A DNA stretch of 64,000 nt from an uncultured Anaerolineae bacterium (GTDB lineage: Bacteria; Chloroflexota; Anaerolineae; Anaerolineales; Villigracilaceae). Within the stretch, counting starts at the first letter, position 1; each line of letters starts with the position of its first letter. Shown here piece after piece: positions 21,801 through 40,994 of the stretch. The stretch covers positions 1 through 64,000 of the forward strand of contig CAIJPN010000002.1 in assembly GCA_903822545.1 (NCBI GenBank), in the 5' to 3' direction. The position numbers and the translations under genes were made by a program. The notes beneath the pieces are model-generated. The model did not search any database. It saw nothing but the letters and a program-made list of their open reading frames with translations, and had not been told where the DNA came from.

Positions 21801-21847
21801 AAAAAACACAGCCGGGAAGTTTTTCACCTGAAAAACTTCCCGGCTGT
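21801..21847 (-). terminator. Strong terminator of the sensory operon
   Basis: A perfect 19-bp stem (21808-21826 with 21829-21847, 2-nt loop). On the minus strand it is followed by a G and a run of six Ts (21801-21806). It ends transcription of the long minus-strand operon and separates it from the convergent ThiF-rhodanese gene. Confidence 0.9.
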
Positions 21848-21892: not shown

Positions 21893-23095
21893 CTATGTTG
21901 TGCGTATGCTGGCATTCAGGTATTTAAGCCCCGAGCCGGTGTTAAAGAGCACAATCGTCTCGTTGGGGCGAATCCATTTTTGCTGTATCAACTGATCCAA
22001 CGCGGCGATGGTGGCTGCGCCTTCGGGGGCGGCAAAAATTCCCTCGGTTTCGGCCAGTTGGTGCTGGGCGGCGAGAATGGATTCGTCACTGACGGCAACA
22101 GCGGTGCCGTTGCTTTCGTTCAGGGCGCGCAGGATGAGATGGTCGGCGAAACTTTTGGGTACGCGCAGGCCAGTGGCGATGGTGCGGGCGTTCAGCCAGA
22201 AATCGCAAAAGGCTTCGCCAATTTCAAAGGCTTTTACCACTGGGGCGCAGCCATCTGATTGTACTGCCACCATGCGTGGGCGTCTGGAATTTTCCAGCCA
22301 GCCCAGGGCGTCCATTTCAGCAAAGGCTTTCCACATGCCAACCAGCCCGGTGCCGCCGCCGGTTGGGTAAACGATCACATCGGGCAGTACCCAGCTAAAG
22401 AATTGGGCCAGTTCGTATCCAATGATTTTTTTGCCTTCCACGCGGTAAGGTTCTTTGAAGGTTGAAAGGTCAAACCAACCCTCAGCGCGGGCTTTTTCAC
22501 CGGCGATGCCGGCTGCTTCGCTGATAAGCCCATCAACCAGGTTGACTTCAGCGCCGGCCATGCGGCTTTCTTCGATGTTGGCGATGGGGGTATCTTTGGA
22601 CATGATGATGTGGGCTTTTAGGCCCGCGCGGGCGGCATAGGCGGCCATTGCGCCGCCTGCGTTGCCCACGGTGGGGATGATGACTTTGCGGACATCCAGC
22701 TCTTTGGCTTTGGAGATGGCTACTGCTATGCCGCGCGCTTTAAAAGAGCCGGTGGGGTTGGTGCTTTCATCCTTGATGAACAGGTGCGGGAGGCCGTATT
22801 TTTCTCCCAGGCGTGGCAGGTATAGCAGGGGGGTATCCCCTTCTCCCAGTGTTACACAATTGGCCGGGGATTGTACCGGCAAGAGTTCGTGCCAGCGCCA
22901 CATTCCCCAATGGCGTTTGGTGAAATCTTCGCGCCGCAGGTTCTGCCGCAGGCTCTGAAGATCGTAATTGGTCATTAGCGGGGCCTGGCAGTCGGGGCAA
23001 TAGGTGTTTACCTCGCTGGCTGAGAAGATTCTTCCGCAGTCAGCGCAGGTGAGGTTGGTAATATACGAATAAACTCTGGATGATCTGATGGACAT
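21893..23095 (-). CDS. Threonine-synthase-like PLP enzyme
   Basis: 400 aa. A fold-type II PLP enzyme of the threonine synthase group, which converts O-phosphohomoserine to threonine. It has an N-terminal zinc ribbon (C17, C20, C33, C36), the substrate-binding GEGDTPL, and the PLP lysine K119 in PTGSFKARG (Ala replaces the usual Asp of SFKDRG). Further motifs are TVGNAGGAMAAY and the phosphate-binding VYPTGGGTG. It is the last gene of the sensory operon, 27 nt after a receiver gene, and a second such enzyme fused to a receiver lies just upstream. It may be the genuine threonine synthase or a specialised paralogue making a related amino acid; the sequence alone does not decide. No other threonine pathway gene is adjacent. 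Confidence 0.8.
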   Translation of the reverse strand: MSIRSSRVYSYITNLTCADCGRIFSASEVNTYCPDCQAPLMTNYDLQSLRQNLRREDFTKRHWGMWRWHELLPVQSPANCVTLGEGDTPLLYLPRLGEKYGLPHLFIKDESTNPTGSFKARGIAVAISKAKELDVRKVIIPTVGNAGGAMAAYAARAGLKAHIIMSKDTPIANIEESRMAGAEVNLVDGLISEAAGIAGEKARAEGWFDLSTFKEPYRVEGKKIIGYELAQFFSWVLPDVIVYPTGGGTGLVGMWKAFAEMDALGWLENSRRPRMVAVQSDGCAPVVKAFEIGEAFCDFWLNARTIATGLRVPKSFADHLILRALNESNGTAVAVSDESILAAQHQLAETEGIFAAPEGAATIAALDQLIQQKWIRPNETIVLFNTGSGLKYLNASIRTT

Positions 23096-23516: not shown

Positions 23517-25157
23517 TTATTTCTTATCGTCTTCGATGACATGGACAACTTGTTCTACAAATTTGCGAGGTGGCAGCGAGCCTTTTTGGTACAGGGCTTC
23601 AATATTGCCACTCAGCCGTTTGCGCTCTTCTTCGGTAATGTCGCGCGCACTGACAACCACAATGGGGATGTTTTGGGTGCGCGGATCGAGTTTCAGCTCT
23701 TCGACCAGGCCAAACCCATCGATTCCGGGCATGGTCAAGTCACTGACGATAATATCGGGCAATTTTTGGCGGGCCTGGGCCAGGCCTTCCCAGCCATCTT
23801 TGGCATGGTAAACGCGATAGGCTTTCTTTGCTTCGAGCAGCCGCCGGATCAACAGGGCGTCATCCGCGTTGTCGTCGATCAACAGCACTGTGGTGGCTTT
23901 CTCATCCAGGTTTTCCAGTGCGGCTTGCAGCCCTTCGCGTGGTGCGGCTGCCTGGCCTTCGCTCAGGTGAACATCCACGGCCCACTGATCGCCCAAAACG
24001 TGTTTTTCTACCGGGAAAGTGTGCCCGGTGCAATTGACCACAACCAGTTCGTTCGGGTCAATTATGCCATTTTTTAGCATCTTTTCCAACCCTGCAAAAG
24101 CAACTGCTGTGGCGGGTTCTACAGCCATACCCTCGCTTTTGGCCAGCGCGCGCATGGCAGAAAAAGCCTCGGCATCTGTCACCGATTCCATCGTGCCGCC
24201 ATACTGCTGGGTCAATTTCCACAAGTAGGTGTAGGTTTTGCCCGGGTCGCCAGTGGAAAGGATGATGATGCAGGTGTCGGGGATGACCGCTTCGGCGGTA
24301 TCGGCCCCAGCCTTGAAGGCCTTTACCATTGGTGAGCAGCCCTCGGCCTGGATGACGGCCAGTTTGGGGATGTGGTCGATCAGCCCCATATCGAGGAGTT
24401 CTTTAAAACCCTGGTAAACGCCCATCGGGCCCATGCCGCCGCTAACAGCCTGGATGTACCAATCGGGGGAGCGCCAGCCGAGTTGTTCGACAATCTCATA
24501 GGCGATGGTTTTCATCGACTCTCGTGATGGGATTGCGCTTGAGCCACGATCCAGCAGCAGGTGGCGGCGCTGGGCGAATTGGGATGCGATTTGCTTCGTC
24601 TGGTCATAATTGCCGCTGACGCGAATCACTTCTGCGCCAAACAGGGCTGCCTCGCGCAATTTTTCCTGGGGGACGAGGCTGGTCATAAAAACCCACAGCT
24701 TGATGCCCGCCCTGGCGCAGGCCGCTGCAAAGGCCACGGCTGCATTCCCGGTGGATGCGATCACCGCTTCTTTGATACCGCCTTCGATCATGGCGGCCAC
24801 AGCTACCGCCGCCTGCCGGTCTTTGAAGGAGCTGGTCGGGCCGTAACGCTCATCTTTGATGTAGACATGCTGGTGTCCGAGCGCCGGGGCGTAACGTTTT
24901 GAGAGCCACAGCGGGGTGCCACCAGCCGGGTACATATCCAATTCGGCGATGTTGTTGATGGGCAGGACTTCCTGGTAGCGCCACAAGTTAAAAGCCCGGC
25001 CAGGTAACCCTCTCAAGATTTCACGCTTGAAGGCTGTGTAATCATATTGGGCTTCCATCCATTGCCCGCCACATTCTTTGCACACAGCTGCCACAAACGG
25101 TTCGTAGGGCTGCTGGTGACCGCAAATGGCGCATTGCAGATGGTGAAGAGTCGACAT
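23517..25157 (-). CDS. Threonine-synthase-like enzyme fused to a receiver domain
   Basis: 546 aa in one uninterrupted frame. Residues 1 to about 400 are a fold-type II PLP enzyme of the threonine synthase group: zinc ribbon C9, C12, C26, C29; AGGTPLW; PLP lysine K112 in TSSFKDRQ; IASTGNAAVAFA; and a Gly-rich loop SGGMGPMG at about 239-246. After a linker of about 20 residues a full receiver domain follows (about 423-540): D428/D429, phospho-acceptor D473 (IIVSDLTMPGIDG), S503 and K525. The residues needed for PLP catalysis and for phosphorylation all appear present, so phosphorylation could control the enzyme directly. It starts 3 nt after the histidine kinase stop, its obvious phospho-donor. 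The substrate is unknown: O-phosphohomoserine is the default, but this paralogue lacks the PTGSFK form. Confidence 0.88.
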   Translation of the reverse strand: MSTLHHLQCAICGHQQPYEPFVAAVCKECGGQWMEAQYDYTAFKREILRGLPGRAFNLWRYQEVLPINNIAELDMYPAGGTPLWLSKRYAPALGHQHVYIKDERYGPTSSFKDRQAAVAVAAMIEGGIKEAVIASTGNAAVAFAAACARAGIKLWVFMTSLVPQEKLREAALFGAEVIRVSGNYDQTKQIASQFAQRRHLLLDRGSSAIPSRESMKTIAYEIVEQLGWRSPDWYIQAVSGGMGPMGVYQGFKELLDMGLIDHIPKLAVIQAEGCSPMVKAFKAGADTAEAVIPDTCIIILSTGDPGKTYTYLWKLTQQYGGTMESVTDAEAFSAMRALAKSEGMAVEPATAVAFAGLEKMLKNGIIDPNELVVVNCTGHTFPVEKHVLGDQWAVDVHLSEGQAAAPREGLQAALENLDEKATTVLLIDDNADDALLIRRLLEAKKAYRVYHAKDGWEGLAQARQKLPDIIVSDLTMPGIDGFGLVEELKLDPRTQNIPIVVVSARDITEEERKRLSGNIEALYQKGSLPPRKFVEQVVHVIEDDKK

Positions 25158-25160
25158 GGA

Positions 25161-27050
25161 TTACTTCCTTGATGTTTTTTCGATAGCTTCGGCGATGTGT
25201 GCTTCGATGGGTAGGATAACGTACATTTGTGTGCCTTCACCATTTACACCGGTGCTTTCGGCCCACATGCGGCCACCGTGCATTTCTACCAACCGGCGGC
25301 TGATTGGCAGCCCCAGGCCGGTTCCGCCCACTTTGCGGGTGGTGGATGTATCAACCTGTGAGAATTCCTGGAAGATGGTTTCCAGGTGGTCTGCCGGGAT
25401 GCCAAGGCCGGTGTCGCGCACGGTAATTTTGACGTTTTCTGCGTCGAGCCGGTCAACACGCATCGATACTTTGCCTTTTTCGGTGAATTTGATCGAGTTG
25501 TTGACCAGGTTGATGACCACCTGCCGGATTCGGGTGACATCGGCGGTGACTTCGATTTCTTTGTCTGAATCTGGTTCGATAAACAGGGCCAGGTTTTTCT
25601 CGCTGGCAAGGGTGGATGTGATGCTGGTGACTTCGTCTAAAACGCTGTGAACTTTGAACTTCTCGGGGTGCAGGTTCATGCGGCCCGATTCGATCTTGGC
25701 CATGTCGAGCACATCGTTGATCAGGTGCAGCAGGTGTTGGCCGTTTTTCTGGATCAGTTTCAGGTCGTTTTCCATGTAATCGGTCAGCGGGCCATCAATG
25801 CCTTCGAGCATGACGTCTGAAAAGCCGAGGATGGAGTTGAGCGGGGTGCGCAGTTCATGGCTCATGTTTGCCAGGAAGGATGATTTCAGTCGTTCCAGTT
25901 CCTGCAATTCCAGGGCGCGCTTTTGCAGTTCTTCGTTCAGGCGCAGTGTTTCGAGGTGGATGCTGGCCTGGGTGGCAATGGCTGCCAGCATGGCTGCCTG
26001 GGATTCAGAAAAATCGGTTTTGTCGGTGAGGGCCAGTAATCCGATCGGTTCGCCATGCACGATCAGCGGTTCTGAAAGGGTGATGTTCTGGGGCATATCT
26101 TGCAGTGGTGTCACCTGGGCTGAATCGTACACAAACCCGAGGGTTTCTTCTGTGCGTTCTACGTAGGTTTTCCAACTGTCACGGGCCAGTTTGCGGGTGG
26201 CTTCTTCGGCTGCGGCCCGGGCGCGCGAGGCCTCTGCCAGGAGGCGCAGGTTTTCTACCTGCTGGGCTACCTGGCGGGCAACGGCGCTGGCCATGGCTTT
26301 GTCGGATTCTGTCAGCGGGCGGGATGGATCGGCCTCAAGGATTAACTTCCCAATGTGTTCATCGAGCACAGCAACTGTTTCTTCGAACGCTGCTTCAGGC
26401 GGGGCCAGGTTGGCGTAAGGTTCTACGGCTTCCTGGTCATAGCTGAAGCCGATGCGTTCGCTTTGGTGGATGGCATCGAGGAATGAATCCCAGCTTTCGT
26501 GGGTGAACCTGCGGGTGGCTGCCTGGGCTTCAGCGCGGGCGCGTTCAGCTGAAGCCAGCAAACGCAAGTTCTGGATTTGGAGTGAAACCTGCTGGGCCAC
26601 CGATTGGGCCAGGTTGGCGTCATCAGGAGACCAGGGGTGTTCTGGCGCTGGTTCAATGATCATCGAACCGATCGGCCGGCCTGTTTCAGTTAGCTGGGCC
26701 TTGATGGCATTTTTTGTATCCAATTTGGCGATGGCGGCAACTTGCATCGGTTCGAGCGTCTCCCCGGTGAAGGAGAAACCGACCAGTTCTTTCTCATAGA
26801 TGATGGCAGTGGAAGGTGAAACTGGTTCATTGGCCGGGGCGGCTGGTTCTACCGGTTTGGGGGCTTCAACCAGCGCGGCCGGGCGGTACTGCTGTTCCAG
26901 GAATTGGGTTTCCAGGTCAGCCACGCGTGCGCGCAACAGGTCAAGTTCATGGCGCAGTACTGCCGAGTCCAGGTTGGGCTGGGCGGCGATGCGATCCATG
27001 TCGTTGAACAGCTTTTTGAGCCGTTTTTGGAATTGATCGGGAGGAGCCAT
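25161..27050 (-). CDS. Soluble histidine kinase with GAF-like modules
   Basis: 629 aa with no membrane helix. An N-terminal coiled coil (about 1-55) leads into about three GAF-like sensor modules (about 75-370). Two of these begin with a shared motif, WDSFLDAIHQSERIGFSYD and WKTYVERTEETLGFVYD, which recurs in the membrane receptor upstream. The kinase core is complete: HisKA with MSHELRTPLNSILGFSD, HATPase with NSIKFTEKG, DTGLGI and GTGLGLPIS. There is no receiver. It is the only kinase among nine linked genes, so it probably serves the three kinase-less membrane receptors and phosphorylates both the enzyme-receiver fusion (3 nt downstream) and the free receiver. The ATG follows a 32-nt gap from the last receptor gene. 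Confidence 0.88.
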   Translation of the reverse strand: MAPPDQFQKRLKKLFNDMDRIAAQPNLDSAVLRHELDLLRARVADLETQFLEQQYRPAALVEAPKPVEPAAPANEPVSPSTAIIYEKELVGFSFTGETLEPMQVAAIAKLDTKNAIKAQLTETGRPIGSMIIEPAPEHPWSPDDANLAQSVAQQVSLQIQNLRLLASAERARAEAQAATRRFTHESWDSFLDAIHQSERIGFSYDQEAVEPYANLAPPEAAFEETVAVLDEHIGKLILEADPSRPLTESDKAMASAVARQVAQQVENLRLLAEASRARAAAEEATRKLARDSWKTYVERTEETLGFVYDSAQVTPLQDMPQNITLSEPLIVHGEPIGLLALTDKTDFSESQAAMLAAIATQASIHLETLRLNEELQKRALELQELERLKSSFLANMSHELRTPLNSILGFSDVMLEGIDGPLTDYMENDLKLIQKNGQHLLHLINDVLDMAKIESGRMNLHPEKFKVHSVLDEVTSITSTLASEKNLALFIEPDSDKEIEVTADVTRIRQVVINLVNNSIKFTEKGKVSMRVDRLDAENVKITVRDTGLGIPADHLETIFQEFSQVDTSTTRKVGGTGLGLPISRRLVEMHGGRMWAESTGVNGEGTQMYVILPIEAHIAEAIEKTSRK

Positions 27051-27082: not shown

Positions 27083-30000
27083 CTACTTTTCATCTTTTTT
27101 CATGCTTAATTGTGCGATGGTGCGTGGCGCGCCCAGGGCATGGCCTAGTTCGCGGGCGGCGATTTGCAACACGGCTTCTACGGTTGTGGCGCTCTGGATC
27201 TTCTGGCTGATGGTGTTGAGCATGGATTCGCGTTCAGCCTGTTGTTGGGCGCGAGCGAAGGAGTAAGCATTTTGGAGAGCGGTGGCTACCTGCGAGGCCA
27301 GTGTGGTGTAAATGCTGGCGTCTTCTGCCGAGAAGGCGTTCAACTGATCCGATTGTACATCCAGCACACCGAGTAGTTGCTCACCGATGACGAGCGGAAC
27401 GGCCATTTCAGATTTGGTTTCGGGCAACATTGGGTTGGGCAGCCAGCCGGGTTCAGTATGCACGTTGTTGGCAATCACGTATTCGCGGGAGCGTCCGGCT
27501 CGGGCTACCAGCGATTGCTCAGTTGCGAGCGGAATGATGGTGGTGCCGTGCGTGCCTTCGTTCTCATCACCTTCTTTCCAACCACAGGCTGTGATTACCA
27601 TGTTTTTGGCGCGTTCATCATAAGTGAACACGTGAGCATGGTACAGGCCAAACCGGCGCTGGGTGAGGAATACCACGGATTGGAGCATTTTCTGAATATC
27701 CAGTTCGCGGGATGACACGGTGCTGACTTCGGCCACTGCTGCGAGCTGGCGGGCGCGCTGGTCGAGTTCGAATTGGCCGCGTTTGGTTTCTTCGAACTGC
27801 CTGAGACTTTCGATATGGGCGCTGAGGCGTTCGGCTACATCGTTGATCAGGGAGATGGATTCTGTATCATCCTGGCTTAACCCGATCACCGAAAGTTTGC
27901 CGATGGATTCTTCACGGATCTTAATCGGCATTGTGGTGACCTGTTCTTCGGTTTCTGGGGTCGGGGCTGCATCTACAGGTTTGACCTCGCGCAGATCATA
28001 CATAAAACTGAGTTTTTCGGTTTCACGTGCTTGCAGGTATTGCCGCCACCCTTCAATGGTGGCGCGGCGGCTGGTTTGTTCTGCCTCGGCGCGGTAGCGG
28101 TTGGCGCTATCCAGCAGGCGCAGGTTTTCAACTTGTTGCGATACCTGGCGGGCGACGATGGTGATCAGTTCGGCTGTGCGTGGATTTGATTGCTGCGCAT
28201 CAATGGCAACTGCCAGCGAGCCGATCGGCTCACCGCTGATCGCGATGGGCGCTCTAACAGTGGGTGTTTCTTCAGACCACTGGGTTTCTTCGGTGATGGG
28301 TGTCACCTGGTTCTGTTCAAAGATGAAGCCGGCATGTTCTGGCTGGTGGATGGCATCCAGGTAATCTTCCCACCCGGCGCGGGCCAGGCGGCGGGCCTGC
28401 TTTTCCACTTCGGCGCGGGCTTCGTTGGTTTCGGCCAGCAGGTTGGCATTTTGAATGGCTACGGCCAATTGTCCGGCCAGGGCTTCGAAGGCTGAGAGCA
28501 TTTCCTGGTTCAGCGAACCAGGAACCCGGCTTTGCAGGTCGAGCACGCCTACCACGCGATCAGCTACCAGCAGGGGAACGGCCATTTCAGAACGGGTATC
28601 AGGCAGCAGCGGGTTGGGTTTGAAGGTTGGGCTGGATGCAGTATCGGCGATAACCACTGAGCGCCTTTCGATAGCTGCACGACCATTGATGGAGTTTGTG
28701 TTCAAGGGGAGTTTGTGCCCGCGGCCAACCAGTTCCACACCAACCGGGCCGGTACCGGCTTTCAGCAGCAGTTCTGTGCGGCTCGGGTTAGGTAGGTATA
28801 CCTGGGTATAGTAAAGATCGAAGCGTGAGCGGATGAGTTCTGTAGCATCGTGTAGCAGGATCTCGAGATCACGCACCTGGGAGACGGAGCGGCCGACTTC
28901 AGCTGCCAGTTCCAGGCTGTGGGTACGTTCTGCTACGCGGCCTTCCAGTGAACCAATGATTTCGCGCAACTGGGCGGTCATCGAGTTGAAAGCTCTGGAG
29001 AGCACGCCGATTTCATCTGAGCTTTGGGTTTCAACCATTAAGTTCAGGTTGCCTTCGGCAACTTTGGCAGCCGTACTGGTCAGGCTGATGATTGGGTTGA
29101 CGAAACTGGTGGCGAAGCGCGTACCAACCGAGACGGACAGGACGCCAATGATCAGCGCGGCCAGGCCAATGACCAGGCCCAGCGTGCCTGCCAACTGATT
29201 GACCGGGGCCAGGGATTCGGAAACATCAATTTTGGCAATGAGACCCCAGGTTTGCGCATCGGCGCGCGATGTGCTTGATTCTGTGATTTCTACCGGCGAC
29301 CACACTGCCATTACTTGAAGTCCACGGTAATCAGTGAAAGTCCCCTGACTTGATTCGCCTGCCAGCGCCGAGCGTGATGCAACCGTATCCACTTTGAATT
29401 TTGGATCCAGGATGGTCGATTCTACGCCCAGGTCTGCCAGGAAACGGGTTTCTGTGCGGCGGGTTTGGTCTTGCCCGACAATGAAGGTTTCACCCGTATT
29501 GCCCAGGCCGGTGGTTTCAGACATGATGTCTTGAATTTGGGCTTGTGATGCTTGTGCCACCACGATCATTTCAATTTCGTTTTTCTCATTCAGCAGGGGG
29601 ATGGCAAAGAAGCCAGCCGGTTTCCCTCCGGTGGGCGCGTAAGGTGCAAAATCTACAAATTCGAACGATTTGCTTTCTTTGACTTCACGAACCAGGGAAC
29701 CCAGGTTTGTATCTTTGTATTCCCCGGTGATGATGTTGGTCTGGTAATCAGCTTCTTTGGCGACAGAGTAGAAAATAAAACCATCAGCGCTGATCAGGAA
29801 AATATCGTAAAAGTCATAGTTTTCTTTGAAGTTGGTCAGGTAGTCTTTTTGGCGACCTTCCAACTGGGGCACAAAAACTTCATTGGCGAAAGAAGTTGTT
29901 GCAATGGCCCAGTTCAACCCCGGGATGTTCAGTGGGGCATATACGCTTAGTTCATACACTCCGGTGGTGCCAACTCTTAACTCTGAGCCTGTTTCGCCGG

Positions 30001-31015
30001 CCAGGGCTTTCTGACCATCCGTATCTGGTTTAGGATCACCGATTGCGCCCTGCTTGACAACGCGGTCGCTGCGTAATTGGATTTCGCCGCTCGCAGTGTT
30101 GCCAACCAGGAAGGATTCAGCCGAGGGGGTCAGGCCGGTGCGATCCTGGACGACGGCGTTGATTTCAGCCAGCGGTAGTTGGTAGACCAGCATCCCCACC
30201 AATACCTGGGCGTTATAGATGGGGGTCCCGATGAACATGGTCTGTTTGTCAAATATCAAGGCCGTATCGGCAATAACAGATTGGCCGACCGGGTTTTTTT
30301 TCAATGACTGGTATAGCCCGGCCAGGTTGCTGTCTTTGTAAGGCCCAGAAACAAGGTTGGTGCCAAATAGATCGGTTTTGAGGGTGCTGTAAACGATATT
30401 CCCGGTTGTGTCAATTAAGAAGGCATCTTCGTAGCCATGAATGGCTGTGTAGCCGCTAAAGAAACCATGCTGTTCCAGATGGACGGTGCTGTAAGCGCTA
30501 CCATCTGGAGCCATTTGGAGATCGCTCTTCCCCAGGTACAGGTCGCGCACCTGGGTGGCGCCACTCTCTTTGAATCCGGCTTCCAGGTCGAGAACACCAG
30601 AGATTACACCAGGGTCTGAGGCCACATCACGCACATCGGCATCCCATACTTGGAAAGCGTTGAAAATCTGGTCTCTTTTTAAGTTATTGATGGCTTCGAG
30701 TTTGGCAATGGCAGCCTGTCTTAGTGCAGCAGTGGTTTCGCGCAAAGTCACCATGTCACCTTGGCGTTCTGATAAGTAGTTTGTGACCTGGTTCACTTTG
30801 ATCTGCTGCACAGCTGCCAGCTTATCGAAAGCATCTTTTGTGAGTGCGTTACTAACCTGTACATAAGTAGCCCATCCCAAGACGATGCTGATCAGTACCA
30901 CCGGGATAATGGCCGCGCCAATCACGATGGCGGTCAGGCGGTTGCGAATGGATGCCTGTAAAAATCCAGACAAAGATGAGCCAAGATTTTTGGGGTTTAA
31001 GTTTGGTGTGCTCAT
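27083..31015 (-). CDS. Large membrane receptor (Cache-like, HAMP, GAF) without kinase
   Basis: 1310 aa. A membrane helix near residues 27-50, an unusually long extracytoplasmic part (about 50-605) that probably holds two Cache-like sensor regions (repeated phrases such as YKDSNL and YKDTNLG), a second helix and a HAMP domain (about 610-690). The cytoplasmic part has about four GAF-like modules, including WEDYLDAIHQPEHAGFIFE and WRQYLQARETEKLSFMYD, which match modules in the linked kinase. There is no HisKA, HATPase or chemoreceptor signalling hairpin. The C-terminal 45 residues (QKIQSATTVEAVLQ, ARELGHALGAPR) are shared with the two other receptors. It likely passes a signal to the kinase encoded 32 nt downstream by direct contact. 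Confidence 0.82.
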   Translation of the reverse strand: MSTPNLNPKNLGSSLSGFLQASIRNRLTAIVIGAAIIPVVLISIVLGWATYVQVSNALTKDAFDKLAAVQQIKVNQVTNYLSERQGDMVTLRETTAALRQAAIAKLEAINNLKRDQIFNAFQVWDADVRDVASDPGVISGVLDLEAGFKESGATQVRDLYLGKSDLQMAPDGSAYSTVHLEQHGFFSGYTAIHGYEDAFLIDTTGNIVYSTLKTDLFGTNLVSGPYKDSNLAGLYQSLKKNPVGQSVIADTALIFDKQTMFIGTPIYNAQVLVGMLVYQLPLAEINAVVQDRTGLTPSAESFLVGNTASGEIQLRSDRVVKQGAIGDPKPDTDGQKALAGETGSELRVGTTGVYELSVYAPLNIPGLNWAIATTSFANEVFVPQLEGRQKDYLTNFKENYDFYDIFLISADGFIFYSVAKEADYQTNIITGEYKDTNLGSLVREVKESKSFEFVDFAPYAPTGGKPAGFFAIPLLNEKNEIEMIVVAQASQAQIQDIMSETTGLGNTGETFIVGQDQTRRTETRFLADLGVESTILDPKFKVDTVASRSALAGESSQGTFTDYRGLQVMAVWSPVEITESSTSRADAQTWGLIAKIDVSESLAPVNQLAGTLGLVIGLAALIIGVLSVSVGTRFATSFVNPIISLTSTAAKVAEGNLNLMVETQSSDEIGVLSRAFNSMTAQLREIIGSLEGRVAERTHSLELAAEVGRSVSQVRDLEILLHDATELIRSRFDLYYTQVYLPNPSRTELLLKAGTGPVGVELVGRGHKLPLNTNSINGRAAIERRSVVIADTASSPTFKPNPLLPDTRSEMAVPLLVADRVVGVLDLQSRVPGSLNQEMLSAFEALAGQLAVAIQNANLLAETNEARAEVEKQARRLARAGWEDYLDAIHQPEHAGFIFEQNQVTPITEETQWSEETPTVRAPIAISGEPIGSLAVAIDAQQSNPRTAELITIVARQVSQQVENLRLLDSANRYRAEAEQTSRRATIEGWRQYLQARETEKLSFMYDLREVKPVDAAPTPETEEQVTTMPIKIREESIGKLSVIGLSQDDTESISLINDVAERLSAHIESLRQFEETKRGQFELDQRARQLAAVAEVSTVSSRELDIQKMLQSVVFLTQRRFGLYHAHVFTYDERAKNMVITACGWKEGDENEGTHGTTIIPLATEQSLVARAGRSREYVIANNVHTEPGWLPNPMLPETKSEMAVPLVIGEQLLGVLDVQSDQLNAFSAEDASIYTTLASQVATALQNAYSFARAQQQAERESMLNTISQKIQSATTVEAVLQIAARELGHALGAPRTIAQLSMKKDEK

Positions 31016-31101: not shown

Positions 31102-32979
31102 CTAGTTATTGCTTCCGGGCAGATCGTTTTTCTCACTATTTGCCTGGATCCTGGCGCTGACGCGAGGAGCGCCAAGAGCCAGCCCAAGCTCGCGAGCTGC
31201 AATCTGGAGGGTTTCTTCCACTGACGATGAGCGCTGGATTCTCTGGCCAATGGCGTTGACCATGGTTTCCAGTTCAGCCTGTGAGCGGGATTGTTCCAGT
31301 GAGCGAGCGTTTTGCAATGAGATGGCGACCTGACTGGCGAGGGATTGCAGCAACTCCACATCTTCTTCGCCTAGGCCATTGATCACGTTTTGCTGCACGT
31401 CCAGCACACCCAGCACCTGGTTACCCATCGAAATCGGGATGGCTGTTTCAGATTTGGTGTCGGGCAGCAGCGGGTTGGGCAGCCAGCCTTCAGCTTTGGT
31501 CACATCTTGCACCAACACCGGGGCGTTGCTATCAGCTGCGCGACCCACCAGGCCGCGCCCCTTGGGGATTTTATGCCCGCGTGCCAGCATGGTGGCCCCG
31601 GCTTCACCAGTACCGCCAGACATTACCAGGAATTCGTGCGCATCATCGAAGAAATAAATGTGGGCATGATAGTAGTGGAACGCGGCCTGCACCTGTTCCA
31701 CCACGTTGGTAGCCAGTTGTCGAGGGTTGGTGGCTGCCGAGAGACGGCGGCTGACTTCTGCCGAGGTTTGCACCGCCAGGGCGCGGCGGCGCACATCTTC
31801 GAAGGCCAGGCCTAGGCGGGCGGTCATCACATTGAACGTGTCTGCCAGCGCACCGATTTCATCTGCGGATGCCACATCCGCCTGGACATCAAACTTACCA
31901 CTGGAGATTTCCTGGGCGGTGGCTGTCAGCGCTACGATTGGGCGGGTCAACTGCCGCGCGATGGTGATCGAGAGCACAATGGCAAGCCCCATGGCGACTA
32001 CTACGATTGCCAGTGTAGCAGTGGTGACCAGTTGGGCGGTGGCCTGCGCCTGGGCAGTCTTTTCTGCACCGAGCCTGGTTCCCAGGTCCAGGATTTTGAG
32101 CGTCAGCGGCTCTACTGCGCGACCGGCTTCGATCAGGGCTGCATCATTTTCTGCAATTTGCTGGTCAATATCTACCAGCTGGTCAAAGGCTTTGATGTAG
32201 ATGTCAGCCTGGCGGTTCAGTTCCTGCTTCTTGGTTGTGGTGAGCGTTTCGCTGGCTGAAATTTGCTCTTTGAGCCGGGCAACCATGGTGTGAACGTTTT
32301 CATCGTATTGCGAGTCGCCACGCGCGATGAAGTCTTTTTCGTTGCGGCGAATTTCAAGGTAAGAGATTTCAAGCGCCTCCATGCCTGGTTTTCCAGCGAT
32401 TTCTGTTTCGATGATCCGGGCGGCGGCGCGGAATTCGCCCTGGAAGCCTGTGGTTTCGCTATAACCGCGCTGGCCATATGCATTTACCAGCGCATTAAAA
32501 ATGGATTCGTAATTATCCACATAGCCTTTCAGGGTGGCGATATCGTTTTCGTAGCCTGCCTGGGTGAATTCACCAGTAGAAAGGGTGGCCGCTACTGCGC
32601 CAAACTGATCCAGCGCATCAAGATTTTCGCGCATGGCTTTAACCGCTGTCGAGTATAGTGCGTAGTAGTTGCTATAAGCGGTATCATAGCCCTCGCTTTC
32701 CCAGCGCAGTTGGAAGTTCTTTTCAGCGCGGCGGGCGCGTAGCAGTTCAATATCTAACTGGTTGGCAAGACGGCGCATTTCCACGCCTTGTGACAACGTA
32801 TCTTGGAATTCAGTTTGCACCAGGTATAGACCGTACAAGGTCACGGCGGCGATGATGATAGTGAAAACGAACAATGCCCCAAACGCGAATAGCAGTTTTC
32901 GCCCCAGGGGCTGCCTGGCCCAAAAACCGAACTGCCTGATGCCGGTTGATGCGGATTGAGTGACTGGGCTTGTATTCAT
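31102..32979 (-). CDS. Membrane receptor (helical sensor, HAMP, GAF) without kinase
   Basis: 625 aa. A membrane helix (about 28-53), an extracytoplasmic helical region (about 54-315) of the kind seen in four-helix-bundle chemoreceptor sensors, a second helix (about 318-340), HAMP (about 340-395) and one GAF domain (about 415-560; FHYYHAHIYFFDDA, KSETAIPISMGNQVLGVLDVQ). It has no kinase or methyl-accepting domain. The C-terminal tail (QRIQRSSSVEETLQ, ARELGLALGAPR) is closely related to the tails of the receptors on each side. It starts 3 nt after the preceding receptor stop, and 86 nt separate it from the next gene, the widest gap within the operon core. Confidence 0.85.
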   Translation of the reverse strand: MNTSPVTQSASTGIRQFGFWARQPLGRKLLFAFGALFVFTIIIAAVTLYGLYLVQTEFQDTLSQGVEMRRLANQLDIELLRARRAEKNFQLRWESEGYDTAYSNYYALYSTAVKAMRENLDALDQFGAVAATLSTGEFTQAGYENDIATLKGYVDNYESIFNALVNAYGQRGYSETTGFQGEFRAAARIIETEIAGKPGMEALEISYLEIRRNEKDFIARGDSQYDENVHTMVARLKEQISASETLTTTKKQELNRQADIYIKAFDQLVDIDQQIAENDAALIEAGRAVEPLTLKILDLGTRLGAEKTAQAQATAQLVTTATLAIVVVAMGLAIVLSITIARQLTRPIVALTATAQEISSGKFDVQADVASADEIGALADTFNVMTARLGLAFEDVRRRALAVQTSAEVSRRLSAATNPRQLATNVVEQVQAAFHYYHAHIYFFDDAHEFLVMSGGTGEAGATMLARGHKIPKGRGLVGRAADSNAPVLVQDVTKAEGWLPNPLLPDTKSETAIPISMGNQVLGVLDVQQNVINGLGEEDVELLQSLASQVAISLQNARSLEQSRSQAELETMVNAIGQRIQRSSSVEETLQIAARELGLALGAPRVSARIQANSEKNDLPGSNN

Positions 32980-32982
32980 GCT

Positions 32983-35436
32983 CTACTCCTGAACAGCTTT
33001 GCGCTCACCAGAAAGGGCCGCCGGTTCCACTGATACCATTGTGGGCCGCATCCCCAGGGCGCGGCCAAGTTCGCGCGCCGCAGTCTGTAAAGCAATTTCC
33101 ACGGTCGGCGCGCTCTGGATCTTCTGGCTGATCTGGTTCAAAACGGCTTCGCGTTCGGCCTCCTGTTGGGCCTGTGCGAAAGAACGGGAATTTTGCAGGG
33201 CTACGGCCACTTGCGCGGCCAGTGTCGTCTTGATATTTACATCCACTTCAGTAAAACGGTTAACCTGTTCCGATTGCACATCCAGCACACCTACCACTTT
33301 GCCGCCCACCATCATCGGCACAGCCATTTCTGCGCGTGTATCTGGCAGCAATGGGTTGGGCAGGAAGTCTGGATCGAGGGTGACATCATTGACCACCACA
33401 CCAGCTTGCGAACGGGCGGCGCGGGCCACCAGCGATTGTTCGCGGTCGAATGGGATGGTGCGCCCTTCTGATACCATTTGCCGCCCGGTTTCACCTGCGC
33501 CAGCGGTGAGCACCAGGGTATCCCCGCTTTCATTGAGCAGGTAAATGTGCGCATGGTAAAGATTGAAAGATTTTTTGGCCAGGTCTACCACTTCTTGCAG
33601 CAGCTTCTGTGCTTCAGTGATGGTAGCGGTGGCGATACCTACGGTTGCCACCACGCCCAGGTCGTTCGCCATTTTTTGGGTGGTCTGGAACTGGCGGATG
33701 GTTTGGAGCGCGATCGCTACCTGGCTGGCGATGGAACTGATCAGGTCGGCGTCTTGCTGGCCCAGGCTATTCACTATGTTATTTTGTACATCCAGCACCC
33801 CCAGGGCCTTGTTACCGGCCAGGATTGGCACCGCGATTTCAGCTTTGGTTTCTGGAAGCAATGGGTTCGGCAGCCAGCCTTCAGCTTTGCTGGTATCTGG
33901 CACAAGCACGATCTCCCTTGATTCTGCTGCCCGGCCTACCAGGCCGCGTCCGTGCTGGATTTTGTGGCCGCGCTCCAGCAGGATCCGGCCCGCTTCGCCG
34001 GTACCGCCTGCCATCAGCAGGTTTTCCCCTGAGTCATCCAGCAGGTAAATGTGGGCATGGTAGTAATTGAAGGCAGACTGGAGCTGGTTCACCACTTCCA
34101 CGACCAGCTTTTGTTCATCAGTGATGGTGGAAATACGGCGGCTGACTTCGCCCGCCGTTGCCAGGGCTTTGGTGCGGTCGGCCACGCGCAATTCCAGCGT
34201 GGCGATGAAATCGCGCAACTGGGAGGTCATACGGTTGAAGGTGCCTGCCAGGGTACCGATTTCATCACTGCTTTCCACTTTGGCCTGGATGTTGATGTCA
34301 CCGGCGGCGATGGCTTCAGCGGTATGGGTAAGGCGGGTGATTGGCCCTGAGAGTGTGCGCGAAACAAACAGACCGACCAGGCCGACAATAAAGCCAATGC
34401 CCAACGTCAGCAGAATGTTGGATTGGGCCTGCTGGTTGATGGGGGCCAGGAATTGTGTCTGCGGTACAGCAAACACCACCAGCCAGTTTTGCGTGGTCAT
34501 GGATGTCACCGCCACTTGTTCCAGGTTACCATCAGTTGTTAGCTCCGCTGCAAAATAAGGCTGGCTGGCCGCATTTTGCAAGCCTGCTTCAAAATCGGGG
34601 CGGTTGGTTGCCAGTTCTTCTGGGGTTCCGGGTGGAAGCAAGCGTTTGGTCTGGAGGTCGGTTACCAGTTTGGCATCCAGCGGCACCACCGATTTATAGA
34701 TTGCGGCGACGTTGGCCCCATGCGCGAGACGCACGTGGTTTTCATCCAGGAGCACCGGGAAGGAGCCTGCGCCCACCAGGCCTTTTTGCGGGATCACATA
34801 CTCCATCAACACGGCTGCATCAAAACGTTTGCGGATGATGCCAATGATATTGCCGGCGGCATCATGCACCGGTGCGGCAAAGTAAATGGATGGTTTTTTG
34901 GTTGTACTATCGTATTCTACGGTTGATGCGTATGGCCGGTTGGTCAAGATAACTTCCTGGAAATAAACGCGGTCAGACCGATCTGTGCCGTTTGCGCTTG
35001 GTTCGGTGTCAATCAGGGTGATCCCCTTGGCATCCAGGATGGCGATGGAGTTCAAGTAAACCGGGTCTTTGCGGCTCGTGCCCGCCAGGAAGCGCAGGAG
35101 GCGGGATTCTTCCGGGCTGTTGGCGCGTTGCCCCTCAGGCAGGGTGATGTAGTCCACGATGGCGGCAAACTGGGCCTCCGCGCGCACTGCATGGGTGTTT
35201 TCTGCCATGAACGCATCCAGGATGGCTGCTGTTTGTTTCGCGCCTGCAAACAGCTTTTCATTAGCCTCGCTGGTCAGGGCTTGCTGGGTATTTTGGGTGT
35301 TGATGACTGCGATAATGACCAGCGGGATGATGGCCACTGCCAGCAGGGCTATAATCAATTTAGCGCCCAGGCTGAAATCACGCCAGCGTAAAGAAAAACC
35401 TGGTCGGGTAGATTGTACAGTTGTAGTTGTATTCAT
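32983..35436 (-). CDS. Membrane receptor (dCache-like, HAMP, two GAF) without kinase
   Basis: 817 aa. A membrane helix (about 25-47), an extracytoplasmic double-Cache-like domain (about 50-320; IAILDAKGITLIDTEPS, STVEYDSTTKKPSIYFA), a second helix (about 325-350), HAMP (about 350-400) and two GAF domains (about 425-570 and 610-760). Cache domains bind amino acids, organic acids or amines. No kinase or methyl-accepting region is present. The last 45 residues (QKIQSAPTVEIALQ, ARELGRALGMRP) match the tails of the two other receptors. It lies 19 nt after the solute-binding lipoprotein gene, which suggests the binding protein presents its ligand to this receptor. Confidence 0.86.
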   Translation of the reverse strand: MNTTTTVQSTRPGFSLRWRDFSLGAKLIIALLAVAIIPLVIIAVINTQNTQQALTSEANEKLFAGAKQTAAILDAFMAENTHAVRAEAQFAAIVDYITLPEGQRANSPEESRLLRFLAGTSRKDPVYLNSIAILDAKGITLIDTEPSANGTDRSDRVYFQEVILTNRPYASTVEYDSTTKKPSIYFAAPVHDAAGNIIGIIRKRFDAAVLMEYVIPQKGLVGAGSFPVLLDENHVRLAHGANVAAIYKSVVPLDAKLVTDLQTKRLLPPGTPEELATNRPDFEAGLQNAASQPYFAAELTTDGNLEQVAVTSMTTQNWLVVFAVPQTQFLAPINQQAQSNILLTLGIGFIVGLVGLFVSRTLSGPITRLTHTAEAIAAGDINIQAKVESSDEIGTLAGTFNRMTSQLRDFIATLELRVADRTKALATAGEVSRRISTITDEQKLVVEVVNQLQSAFNYYHAHIYLLDDSGENLLMAGGTGEAGRILLERGHKIQHGRGLVGRAAESREIVLVPDTSKAEGWLPNPLLPETKAEIAVPILAGNKALGVLDVQNNIVNSLGQQDADLISSIASQVAIALQTIRQFQTTQKMANDLGVVATVGIATATITEAQKLLQEVVDLAKKSFNLYHAHIYLLNESGDTLVLTAGAGETGRQMVSEGRTIPFDREQSLVARAARSQAGVVVNDVTLDPDFLPNPLLPDTRAEMAVPMMVGGKVVGVLDVQSEQVNRFTEVDVNIKTTLAAQVAVALQNSRSFAQAQQEAEREAVLNQISQKIQSAPTVEIALQTAARELGRALGMRPTMVSVEPAALSGERKAVQE

Positions 35437-35455: not shown

Positions 35456-36427
35456 TCACGGTAGGAAGGAAGGGTTGAGAAAGTGTTCATCGATCTGGAT
35501 GGGGTATGAAATAATGCCCTTGTCGCTCAAAAACTGGAGTTCAGTTCGGGCCGGGTAATAGATGGAGGTTGTTTCGGTGCCTTTTTGGAACGCTGCTTTG
35601 TTATCTGCCAGGCCGTACAACTTTATCCCTTCCAGCGAAATATCTGTTACCTGTAAACCAAGCGCTCTTGCGATGATCTCATTCCCTTCAACCGGGTTGT
35701 CCTGCCAGAATTGCACTGCTTCGAGCCAGGCCGCAATAAAAGCCTTCACATCTTCAGGACGCTCATCCAGGACACTTGAACGGAAGGCAAACACATCCAA
35801 AAGCAAGCCGGGCGTATCGGCGCTGGTGAATATGGGATTGGCGCCTTTTTCGCGCGCCTGCCCTGCATAAGGCTCATAGGTATGGCCCGCATCGATTGTT
35901 CCGGGGATGGCATCTGGTATGGCTTCTACCGGAACTTCCACCAGGGTTATATCGCTTCGGGTCAGGCCATTCGCATCCAGCATTTTTTGTACCAGGATTT
36001 CCCCATACGTTCCGGCTTGCACACCGATACGCTTTCCGCGCAAATCTTTGGGGCTGGTAATTCCGGGGGCAGCCACAACCTGGTCTGCGCCATTTGATCC
36101 ATCGGTTACCAGCACAATATGGTTGTCTTCAGAAACGTCATCCAGCAGTACATCGCCAAGGGCTAACGCGCCGCCATCCAATAAACCTGACCCCAGGGCT
36201 GGCATAGTGTCTTTATAAGTTTCATAAAAAACAATTTCAACAACGACCCCGTGTTTTTCGAACAACCCCTTCTCCTGGGCGATCAGCATCGGGTACCAGC
36301 CTGGCCAAAGACTCCAGCCAACGCGCAAGGGTGGCTTTTCTGCCTGCGAAGTGGTCGGTGCGCAAGCGCTCAAAATGAACGCTGTTATCAGGATTACCGA
36401 AAAAATTCGTAACAATTTGGAGAGCAT
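35456..36427 (-). CDS. NitT/TauT-type solute-binding lipoprotein
   Basis: 323 aa. The lipobox LSAC puts the lipidated Cys at C22, so the protein is tethered outside the membrane. The mature part is an ABC-type periplasmic binding protein of the NitT/TauT/SsuA/THI5 group (LRVGWSLWPGWYPMLIAQEKGLF, GVQAGTYGEILV, GTIDAGHTYEPYA). Members bind nitrate, sulfonates, pyrimidines or amines. No permease or ATPase is near; all neighbours are sensory genes and it starts the tight part of the operon. It is therefore more likely a ligand-presenting co-receptor than a transport component. CAGGAG lies 7 nt before the ATG. The 88-nt gap upstream may hold a promoter, but none was convincing. Confidence 0.87.
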   Translation of the reverse strand: MLSKLLRIFSVILITAFILSACAPTTSQAEKPPLRVGWSLWPGWYPMLIAQEKGLFEKHGVVVEIVFYETYKDTMPALGSGLLDGGALALGDVLLDDVSEDNHIVLVTDGSNGADQVVAAPGITSPKDLRGKRIGVQAGTYGEILVQKMLDANGLTRSDITLVEVPVEAIPDAIPGTIDAGHTYEPYAGQAREKGANPIFTSADTPGLLLDVFAFRSSVLDERPEDVKAFIAAWLEAVQFWQDNPVEGNEIIARALGLQVTDISLEGIKLYGLADNKAAFQKGTETTSIYYPARTELQFLSDKGIISYPIQIDEHFLNPSFLP

Positions 36428-38216: not shown

Positions 38217-40214
38217 TCATCCATCTCCCAGCACAAAAATATGCTCCTCCTTGGGGCCATGCACCCCGGTCGTCAGCGCCATCTCAATATCCCCGGTACG
38301 GCTTGGGCCGGTGATGATTTCCAGCATCGGCGCAGGTTTTAGGGCGGGCAGCGCCAGCGCCTCGTTCAGAGTCCGCACCAGGCTGGATTCATACAAAATA
38401 CAGATGTGGAAATCGGGCAGGAGCGAGGCACTCAGCGGCAGATTCGGCCCACCGAGCAGTACCAGTGACCCAGATTCGGCGATGCCGGTTACCGCCCCGG
38501 TTATGCCCGCCAAAGAGGATGGGTCGGGTGCCTGGCTGAATGGGATTCCCAGGCTGGCAGCCAGTTCTGCGCCCAGGCTGTCGCCGCTCACCCGCGCGAT
38601 GCCCCGCGCCCGAAGCCAGGTCGCCAACTCTGGGATGAGGCTCTGCGCGGTGATGCGGTACACCCTGGAGCCGGTGGAGGCTGCCACAGCCGCGAAAATC
38701 TCTCCCAGTGAACGAGAGTCCACTTCCGGGGCGGATTCGGCATCCTGTTTGTGTACGGCGGCCGGCTTTTCGAGCGGCTTTTCCCCAATATTTTGTCGAA
38801 TTTGTTTCCAGCGTTCGCGGAATGGCTTTTCGGCCATTTTGGGAAAATCCTTGCTGTAGCCCCAGCCCGTCCAGGCGGGCAGCGGCAGGTAGTTTTTGCC
38901 CGGCAAGACGATTTTTCCTGCCAGCGCCCCGGCCTTCTGCCCCAGCCCAAACATGGCCGGGGAGGTTGCCGTCGCGCCAAAAACCTTCAGCCCAAGTTTG
39001 AGCGGTGCGGGCAGCCCCACACCTGCCCCGGCTTTTTGGCCGACCTCGCCCGCCCGGACGCGTAGCAGCAGCTTGGGCAGGTCAATATCCACCGGGCAGG
39101 CCTCCTTGCAGGCCCCGCACAGCGAGGAGGCCTGGGCCAGCTGCCCAAAATTCTCGCAGCCGAACAGGCCCGGCGATACCACTGCGCCAATTGGCCCGGG
39201 ATAGGGCGCAAGCGAGCCATCCGCGCCGAGGTAAGCGTGCCCGCCGATCTCGCGGAAGACCGGGCAGGCGTTCAGGCACGAGCCGCAGCGCAGGCAGGCC
39301 AGCGCTTCAGCCAGCGGTGAGGCCTGCATGGCTGTGCGGCCATTATCGACGATGATCAGGTGACGTTCCGCCGGGCCATCGGCATCGCCGGGGCGGTGCG
39401 GCGCATTGATCAGTGTGGTGTAAACGCTCATGCGCTGCCCGATGGCGGCGGGCGGCAGCAGCGAAAGGAACAGCGCCAGGTCATCCAGTGTAGGCACCAG
39501 CCGCTCCATGCCCATCAGCGCCACATGTACCGGCGGGATGGTTGTCACCATGCGGCCATTGCCCTCGTTGGTTACCAGGCACAGCGTCCCGCTCTCGACC
39601 ACGCCAAAATTGACACCCGAAACGCCGATTTCCGCGGTCAGGAAGACCTCGCGCAGCACGCGCCGGGCTGTCGCCACCATCTCGGGGATGTCCTCGGTGT
39701 ACGGCACGCCCAGTTTTTCGTGGAAAAGCTGCCCCACCTGCTGCCGCCGCAGGTGCGCCGCCGGGGTCAGGATGTGGCTGGGGCGTTCACCGCGCAGCTG
39801 GACGATGTATTCGCCCAGGTCAGTCTCCACGGCGCGCAGCCCGGCGGCCTCCAGCCGGTGATTGAACTCGATTTCCTCCGTCACCATCGATTTTGACTTG
39901 GCGACCAGCTTCGCCCCGCGCTCCCGGGCAATTTGCAGGAAAATATCAATCGCCGCGCCCGCATCATTGGCGCGATGCACGCAGATGCCGTTTTCGGCCA
40001 CCCTGGCCGCAAACTGGCTCGCATATTCATCCAGGTGCGCAATGATTTCGGCTTTAATGGCGTGGGCGCGGGCGCGGCGCTGCTCATAATCGGGCAGGGC
40101 CGCAATGGCTTTCCTGCGCCCGGTGGTGCGCCGCAGCGCGTTGCCATCCAGCGCGATTTGCAGGTTTTCGTCTGCAAGCGCAAGTCGGATTTGCTGGTGG
40201 ATATTTTTTTTCAT
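38217..40214 (-). CDS. lutB: LutB-LutC fusion, iron-sulfur lactate-utilisation protein
   Basis: 665 aa, longer than the LutB subunit alone (about 470). Residues 1 to about 450 are LutB: the LUD domain followed by two 4Fe-4S motifs, CLRCGSCLNACP and CGACKEACP. After a linker (about 450-500) a second, LutC-like LUD part follows (about 510-665), ending GPSRTGDIEMALTTGVHGP. With LutA these form a non-flavin complex that oxidises L-lactate to pyruvate; related proteins act on other 2-hydroxy acids. It lies 51 nt after lutA on the same strand, so lutA and a fused lutBC give a complete two-gene system. No lactate permease or LutR is adjacent. Confidence 0.88.
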   Translation of the reverse strand: MKKNIHQQIRLALADENLQIALDGNALRRTTGRRKAIAALPDYEQRRARAHAIKAEIIAHLDEYASQFAARVAENGICVHRANDAGAAIDIFLQIARERGAKLVAKSKSMVTEEIEFNHRLEAAGLRAVETDLGEYIVQLRGERPSHILTPAAHLRRQQVGQLFHEKLGVPYTEDIPEMVATARRVLREVFLTAEIGVSGVNFGVVESGTLCLVTNEGNGRMVTTIPPVHVALMGMERLVPTLDDLALFLSLLPPAAIGQRMSVYTTLINAPHRPGDADGPAERHLIIVDNGRTAMQASPLAEALACLRCGSCLNACPVFREIGGHAYLGADGSLAPYPGPIGAVVSPGLFGCENFGQLAQASSLCGACKEACPVDIDLPKLLLRVRAGEVGQKAGAGVGLPAPLKLGLKVFGATATSPAMFGLGQKAGALAGKIVLPGKNYLPLPAWTGWGYSKDFPKMAEKPFRERWKQIRQNIGEKPLEKPAAVHKQDAESAPEVDSRSLGEIFAAVAASTGSRVYRITAQSLIPELATWLRARGIARVSGDSLGAELAASLGIPFSQAPDPSSLAGITGAVTGIAESGSLVLLGGPNLPLSASLLPDFHICILYESSLVRTLNEALALPALKPAPMLEIITGPSRTGDIEMALTTGVHGPKEEHIFVLGDG

Positions 40215-40226
40215 TGGGAATGATAA

Positions 40227-40255
40227 TCCCTAAAGGTTTTGGAAACCTTTAGGGA
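40227..40255. repeat. Hairpin between lutA and lutBC
   Basis: TCCCTAAAGGTTT (40227-40239) pairs perfectly with 40243-40255 around a TGG loop. It sits in the 51-nt gap inside the operon, 13 nt before the lutBC start codon, where it could affect mRNA stability or lutBC translation. No T-run follows on the minus strand. Confidence 0.6.
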
Positions 40256-40265
40256 CTTTACCTTT

Positions 40266-40994
40266 TCATCTGGAATTCAACACTTCGGCGATGTGCACCA
40301 CGCTGAGGGGTTTCCCCGTGCGATTCAATCCGCCCTGGAGGTGCATCAGGCAGCCCGTATCGCACACTACCATGGTAGGTGCGCCCGTGGCTGTGAAATT
40401 TGCCAGTTTCCGTTTCATCATCTCAGCCGAAAGTTCCGGGTGCTCCACCGAGAAGACTCCGCCAAAGCCGCAGCAATCTTCAGGTTCGGGCAAATCTACC
40501 AGTTCGGCCTCGCGGATGCGGGACAGTAATGCCCGGGGCTGGCGATCCACATTCAGGGCGCGCCGCAGGTGACAGGATGAGTGAAACGTCAATTTGCCCG
40601 GCCAACGTGCCCCCAGGTCGGTGATTCCCAGCACATCCACAAGATATTCGCTGAATTCATACGTCCGCGCCGCCAGTTTTTCGGCGCGCGGCAGCCAGAG
40701 CGGGTCGTCGCGGAAAAGTTCCAGGTAGCCATGCCGCACCATGGCCGCGCACGACCCGGACGGGATAATGACCGCCCCCCCGGCTTGCTCAAATACGCGG
40801 ATGGTGTGCTCGGCCAGCGGGCGGGCATCGGCGCGCAGCCCGGCATTGAAGGCCGGTTGGCCGCAGCAGGTTTGCGCCTGCGCAAATTCCACCCGCACCC
40901 CGGCCTGGTTCAGTACCCGCACAATCGCCTCGCCGACATGCGGGAAGAACGTATCCACGAGGCAGGTGACAAAGAGTTGGACGGTTTCGGGCAT
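40266..40994 (-). CDS. lutA: LutA, CCG-domain lactate-utilisation protein
   Basis: 242 aa, the usual LutA length. It carries two cysteine-rich CCG domains of the GlpC/HdrB type that bind iron-sulfur clusters: QTCCGQPAFNAG in the first half, and FHSSCHLRR with EDCCGFGGVFS in the second. LutA, LutB and LutC work together to oxidise lactate. It is the first gene of the lut operon and is followed by the fused lutBC. No clear ribosome binding site precedes the ATG; a perfect 16-nt palindrome lies 18 nt upstream. Confidence 0.92.
   Translation of the reverse strand: MPETVQLFVTCLVDTFFPHVGEAIVRVLNQAGVRVEFAQAQTCCGQPAFNAGLRADARPLAEHTIRVFEQAGGAVIIPSGSCAAMVRHGYLELFRDDPLWLPRAEKLAARTYEFSEYLVDVLGITDLGARWPGKLTFHSSCHLRRALNVDRQPRALLSRIREAELVDLPEPEDCCGFGGVFSVEHPELSAEMMKRKLANFTATGAPTMVVCDTGCLMHLQGGLNRTGKPLSVVHIAEVLNSR

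Follow-up and report, generated by a model that had tools for sequence, protein, structure and literature searches.

Enzyme-output response regulators, such as CheB, PleD (GGDEF), HD-GYP and PorX, are mostly cyclic-dinucleotide or chemotaxis enzymes that combine an enzyme with a complete receiver in one chain and have an adjoining histidine kinase. The locus described here shares this organization and departs from it in the nature and position of the output, namely an amino-acid-type fold-type II PLP enzyme that is N-terminal to the receiver. On the enzyme side, the closest described relatives are threonine synthases (ThrC, EC 4.2.3.1; TIGR00260 and NF006050; structures 2zsj, 1uim/1v7c, 2d1f and 2c2b), which have the fold and the PLP core in common with the fused protein; the latter differs by its C-terminal receiver, its link to a kinase and the loss of the canonical substrate signature. 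The N-terminal zinc ribbon of the fused protein is also found in NF006050-type relatives encoded in the same genome, and the plant enzyme is a known ThrC member that is switched allosterically, by S-adenosylmethionine. Cysteate synthase (TIGR03844; CapA2, PDB 9k3c) likewise has a ThrC-like fold; no receiver fusion of this enzyme is reported in the sources examined, and the protein described here scores far under the family cut-off.

An archaeal two-component census (PMC5847659, section on RRs with enzymatic output domains) states that bacteria have repeatedly been observed to have receivers on standard metabolic enzymes, and that such fusions are narrowly distributed in archaea; the examples that it names there do not include a PLP enzyme. 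The sequence-only reading of this locus had held that a biosynthetic PLP enzyme as output is not known as a described two-component class. Taken as a claim on metabolic outputs, this was too broad, receiver fusions with metabolic enzymes being on record in general terms in that census; what appears to be unreported is a PLP or ThrC-like output. A literature search found no description of ThrC or a PLP enzyme fused to a receiver, an earlier mention being possible.

The window, i.e., the whole analyzed stretch of 64,000 nucleotides from an uncultured Anaerolineae bacterium, contains a single unbroken frame of 546 aa that encodes this fusion, with the following parts (ORF reading, Pfam, alignment and AlphaFold2):

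23517..25157, minus strand: PALP-REC fusion gene (546 aa) for a response regulator whose N-terminal part is a threonine-synthase-like PLP output domain (ORF, Pfam, alignment)
25071..25133, minus strand: the four cysteines of the zinc ribbon (C9, C12, C26, C29; aa 9-29), without variation among the 67 members of the alignment
24024..24926, minus strand: fold-type II PLP domain (aa 78-378) with the PLP lysine K112; PF00291, E 6.9e-71; best structural matches to threonine synthases
23898..24017, minus strand: enzyme-receiver linker (aa 381-420), predicted to be disordered (pLDDT < 50)
23523..23891, minus strand: receiver domain (aa 423-545) with D428/D429, D473, S503 and K525; PF00072, E 1.9e-15, AlphaFold2 fold and alignment

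In the Pfam search that had been proposed for this pair of domains, both scored far above the respective cut-offs, with 239 bits for PF00291 at aa 78-378 (cut-off 35) and 57.4 bits for PF00072 at aa 424-512 (cut-off 30.2). The PF00072 match spans only positions 1-86 of the 111 positions of the model; the AlphaFold2 model, built with 55 relatives, contains ten of the ten elements of the (beta-alpha)5 fold at aa 423-545, with D473, S503 and K525 closing strands beta3, beta4 and beta5, respectively. The enzyme part of the model is complete (mean pLDDT of 82.5 for the fusion), and the placement of the receiver relative to the enzyme is left unfixed (pTM 0.69), the two being joined by the low-confidence linker of about 40 residues. 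All the expected functional residues are present, i.e., the Schiff-base Lys, the SxGN loop and the Gly-rich PLP-phosphate loop in the PF00291 domain, and the acidic pocket, phospho-acceptor Asp, Ser/Thr and Lys in the receiver. The ORF, Pfam and AlphaFold2 data therefore agree with the sequence-only reading of one frame with a complete PLP part and a complete receiver, and the zinc-ribbon cysteines, K112 and the five receiver residues each occupy the position that it gave. The receiver is not a textbook one because K-G replaces the usual K-P after the conserved Lys. All fused receivers have Q-K-G, or a similar sequence, at aa 524-526, and several of the adjacent hybrid kinases share this feature in their last receiver.

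Searches of Chloroflexota genomes recovered 176 fused proteins (120 distinct), including the one encoded at about 1409294-1410931 in the closed chromosome of an isolate, Herpetosiphon aurantiacus DSM 785 (CP000875.1; L172/L080). Given 120 distinct homologous fusions, one of them in a complete genome, an assembly artefact or frameshift is ruled out, and a chance long ORF is excluded as well, in addition by the domain scores and the invariant residues. An apparent giant fusion (open frames of 1157-1784 aa in genomes G179 and G523) was rejected given that the upstream part of locus L207 matches no domain and resembles a shadow frame.

The genome counts for the fusion come from samples. In the window genome and 60 relatives, matches were detected in 50 of the 61 genomes, nearly all of them full length, and belong to two paralogous types: type A, that of the window, is about 62-86% identical to the window fusion and type B about 48-53%, and the window genome itself carries one type B copy (contig C69) as well. 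In the class-wide sample, 78 of 249 genomes have a match at E <= 1e-120. Across the phylum sample, full-length matches come mostly from the class to which the window belongs, the family of Herpetosiphon and one further family, with only unfused relatives (33-39% identity) in other Chloroflexota. The best 80 of at least 577 relatives in a scan of named genomes are all from Chloroflexota, and a search of plasmids yielded three ThrC-like matches, in none of which the receiver was covered. A third architecture, PALP-REC-REC (about 700 aa), is present in several families; in these loci (L202-L212), tandem receivers follow the PLP domain, as in the protein of 714 aa encoded at L202:7690-9831.

In a phylogenetic tree, the PLP domains of the fusions group together in a single clade on a long stem (support 100/100). 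In the alignment of 67 members (66 non-redundant fused proteins and the window protein), C9, C12, C26, C29, K112, N138, K166, D429, D473 and K525 are invariant, position 428 is D or E, and position 503 is S or T. The identity between types A, B and C is approximately 0.58-0.60 in the PLP part and 0.44-0.52 in the receiver. This higher conservation of the PLP part would be expected from selection on catalysis or on ligand binding, and suggests one substrate or ligand shared by all three types. Taken at the sequence level, the data support a genuine fusion with both parts intact that is conserved and kinase-linked throughout a large clade. The spread through many families of one class, in two or three paralogous forms with strict kinase linkage, is unusual.

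The genome neighborhood of the window fusion contains the following:

25161..27050, minus strand: putative cognate histidine kinase (GAF, HisKA and HATPase_c; phospho-acceptor His398 within HELRTP), encoded 3 nt upstream of the fusion gene
27083..31015, minus strand: dCache-HAMP-GAF sensor protein without a kinase core, 32 nt upstream of the kinase gene (ORF, Pfam)
31102..32979, minus strand: HAMP-GAF membrane sensor protein (ORF, Pfam)
32983..35436, minus strand: Cache-HAMP-GAF-GAF membrane sensor protein (domain search, neighborhood comparison)
35456..36427, minus strand: NMT1/SsuA-like solute-binding protein that heads the sensor cluster and recurs in loci L076 and L091
23123..23503, minus strand: stand-alone receiver of 126 aa, encoded 13 nt downstream of the fusion and found repeatedly beside type A loci
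21893..23095, minus strand: stand-alone zinc-ribbon ThrC-like PLP enzyme, 400 aa (NF006050, 560 bits, cut-off 303)
21808..21847, minus strand: strong intrinsic-terminator-like hairpin, 18 pairs followed by a T-run, just past the ThrC-like gene

The kinase gene lies where the sequence-only reading had placed it. None of the three Cache/HAMP/GAF proteins upstream of it in the window has a kinase core. The solute-binding protein, whose gene has sensor genes directly downstream and lacks a neighboring gene for a transport permease, is possibly a ligand-presenting partner. Further upstream of the sensor cluster, at 38217-40994 on the minus strand, there are genes for a LUD/LutB-like iron-sulfur protein and a CCG (LutA-like) protein, of the lactate-utilization type. 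At the other end, the hairpin likely marks the end of the operon. The ThrC-like gene that precedes it is one of six cases in which a second enzyme of this kind is found downstream of a type A fusion; its product carries SFKAR in place of the SFKDR of the other sequences compared, along with a GGGTGL loop, and represents a further ThrC-like paralogue. A stand-alone receiver gene is often found downstream of type A and of PALP-REC-REC genes. It is absent from type B loci, which instead contain a transporter gene, with an EamA-family member just downstream of the fusion in 16 of 20 type B neighborhoods. In the same group of loci (L086-L103), a gene for a ParA/MinD-type ATPase of about 262 aa is often located just upstream of the type B PALP-REC gene, between two kinase/sensor genes (cluster c5, 11 loci).

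Elsewhere in the window, a gene at 48418-49788 (minus strand) encodes an MtmB-family protein (monomethylamine methyltransferase; 456 aa, PF05369, E 1.8e-102) and adjoins a gene for a corrinoid (B12-binding) protein at 49908-50564 (minus strand). MtmB is typical of methanogens, in which it contains pyrrolysine; the gene in the window has no in-frame TAG, and a TAG-less homologue in a Chloroflexota genome is possibly of interest. Another gene, at 53285-54109 (minus strand), encodes a protein that is predicted to be secreted and has, at its C-terminus, a tandem repeat of Asn/Gly type, which at the DNA level (53327-53468) has periods of 18, 27 and 45.

The association with a kinase is a general feature of the family. 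Among the 103 distinct loci with enough flanking sequence, 96 have a same-strand histidine kinase gene no more than 3 kb upstream of the fusion, at a distance of -20 to +100 nt in 88 of these; this holds for 84 of 86 PALP-REC loci and for 12 of 17 PALP-REC-REC loci. In the remaining 7 loci, mostly of the PALP-REC-REC form, no adjacent kinase was detected by a test based on sequence motifs, which kinases with variant motifs would escape. One of these exceptions, L159, shares a contig with L084, where the upstream gene has the ATPase motifs and lacks the standard His motif; loci L179, L183, L185, L203 and L204, which are among those encoding PALP-REC-REC proteins, have no kinase directly upstream. 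The kinases at type A loci are plain, and those at type B loci are hybrids with C-terminal receivers. Outside its own family, the fusion receiver is most similar to receivers of hybrid kinases. When all receivers of a genome were compared, the last receiver of the adjacent kinase was the top match to the fusion receiver in genome G242 and in G008 ranked second, behind the fusion itself; in G000, the receiver of the kinase beside the type B gene was outscored by a few that belong to other large proteins. A comparison of receivers within the neighborhood set revealed the same trend toward the receiver of the adjacent hybrid kinase. This likeness fits an origin of the fusion receiver from, or a shared origin with, that of the neighboring kinase and is the best sequence evidence for a partnership between the two proteins.

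Based on these observations, it appears probable that the kinase phosphorylates D473 and that the receiver then alters the activity or the oligomeric state of the PLP enzyme. In the proposed scheme, the upstream Cache/HAMP/GAF sensors and the solute-binding protein probably feed the adjacent GAF histidine kinase, which would pass phosphate to D473 of the fusion; the phosphorylated receiver would change the activity or assembly of the ThrC-fold enzyme via the flexible linker of 40 residues; and the enzyme most likely turns over an amino-acid-like substrate that is not O-phosphohomoserine. In type B operons, the EamA-type transporter gene behind the fusion suggests that the product, or a relative of it, is exported. 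Phosphotransfer, the direction of control, catalysis and export are all steps that we infer, and the direct gating of synthesis by a kinase, as put forward in the sequence-only reading, is a reasonable inference.

The flow of information might also be reversed, such that the PLP domain is a metabolite sensor in which an amino acid, bound as an aldimine, tunes the uptake or loss of phosphate by its own receiver, and the real outputs of the relay are other receivers, e.g., the stand-alone receiver encoded downstream. The conserved catalytic residues would likewise be expected in such a PLP-bound sensor, and the MocR regulators, which use aminotransferase-fold domains as sensors, make this role plausible. 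The stand-alone receiver gene that is frequently located behind genes of type A and of the PALP-REC-REC form would suit a pathway that continues beyond the fusion, and the presence of receivers within the type B kinases themselves is also compatible with a reversed flow. Nevertheless, we consider it unlikely, given that no partner output gene is common to all loci, that type B loci have the transporter gene and no stand-alone receiver, and that the ThrC-type active-site core is retained in its entirety.

Returning to the reading in which the PLP domain is the output, the question is which reaction it would catalyze. The solved relatives of the fused PLP domain are threonine synthases, with about 30% identity, and the top Foldseek matches of the fused enzyme are threonine synthases as well. 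For the enzyme part alone, the best VIA-align match is Arabidopsis ThrC with S-adenosylmethionine (2c2b; Z 44.6, rmsd 3.7, 396 aligned residues), followed by the cysteate synthase CapA2 (Z 39.6, rmsd 2.6, 367 aligned), with Z of 36-38 for bacterial ThrC. In comparison with Thermus ThrC, the fused sequences keep the S-T-G-N carboxylate loop and the PLP core, including the equivalents of K61, S84-N87, K116, E162, K165, T317 (T/S) and H319. Threonine synthases are the best curated matches, too. Among the NCBIfam profiles, TIGR00260 matches the window fusion with 171.2 bits, just above the cut-off of 167.1.

All this would be compatible with a phosphorylation-controlled isozyme of threonine synthase, or a bifunctional threonine synthase/deaminase, that makes threonine from O-phosphohomoserine when required. 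The two signatures of the canonical enzyme, NS.NP.R.EGQKT and GN.GN, are however absent from 21 of the 21 fused sequences compared, even though they are kept in Thermus, Aquifex, Mycobacterium and Bacillus ThrC and largely so in Arabidopsis, where the equivalent of the former is NS.NS.R.EGQKT. In the fusions, N154 of the first signature is replaced by G and there is no conserved Arg at R160; N154, S155 and R160 contact the substrate phosphate in the Thermus structure. The second signature is replaced by SGG[LM]GP in nearly all fused members (SG[GA][LM]GP overall). The type B paralogue, with 161.5 bits, falls below the TIGR00260 cut-off, and the NF006050 score of the fusion, 249.9 bits, is below the cut-off of 303; the cysteate synthase profile TIGR03844 matches over its full length (122.9 bits, E 1e-35) and its cut-off of 324.9 is not reached. 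Furthermore, the window genome encodes a separate canonical ThrC (L001; TIGR00260, 303.5 bits) that has both signatures, and at a strict threshold 41 of the 61 genomes were found to contain a canonical ThrC. Given the lost signatures and the separate canonical enzyme, a housekeeping threonine synthase was rejected as the main reading, and we regard the controlled isozyme as improbable. The enzyme is probably a ThrC-like one with an altered substrate; of the earlier description as threonine-synthase-like, the fold, the PLP core and the best matches hold, whereas threonine synthase activity is unlikely. A pseudoenzyme with PLP or a protein partner bound, serving as a scaffold or as an output by protein interaction, would be in line with the loss of the signature and with known non-catalytic PLP-fold proteins (CysK in the CdiA complex 8zyc is among the fold matches) but is very unlikely, considering that the PLP and carboxylate-site residues K112, S135-N138, K166 and G378-H379 are invariant among members that otherwise share only 45-60% identity.

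With a kinase-controlled, catalytically active PLP enzyme as the preferred reading, we tentatively propose, as one possibility, that the fusions constitute a lineage-wide two-component class of Chloroflexota in which a dedicated PLP enzyme, having departed from threonine synthesis, is itself the response regulator and which controls, in place of transcription, the production, combined in type B with EamA-dependent export, of an amino-acid-like metabolite that possibly acts extracellularly. If the proposed mechanism is correct, phosphorylation would directly determine how active a PLP enzyme of the amino-acid type is, so that sensing and metabolism are coupled within one protein. This would assign a function to a considerable number of enzymes that are likely labeled as threonine synthases in automatic annotation, and the cultured Herpetosiphon offers a tractable system for the family. 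Judging from their gene and domain organization, the cells that carry these fusions may use phosphorylation as a direct switch for an enzyme of amino-acid handling, in place of a gene regulator.
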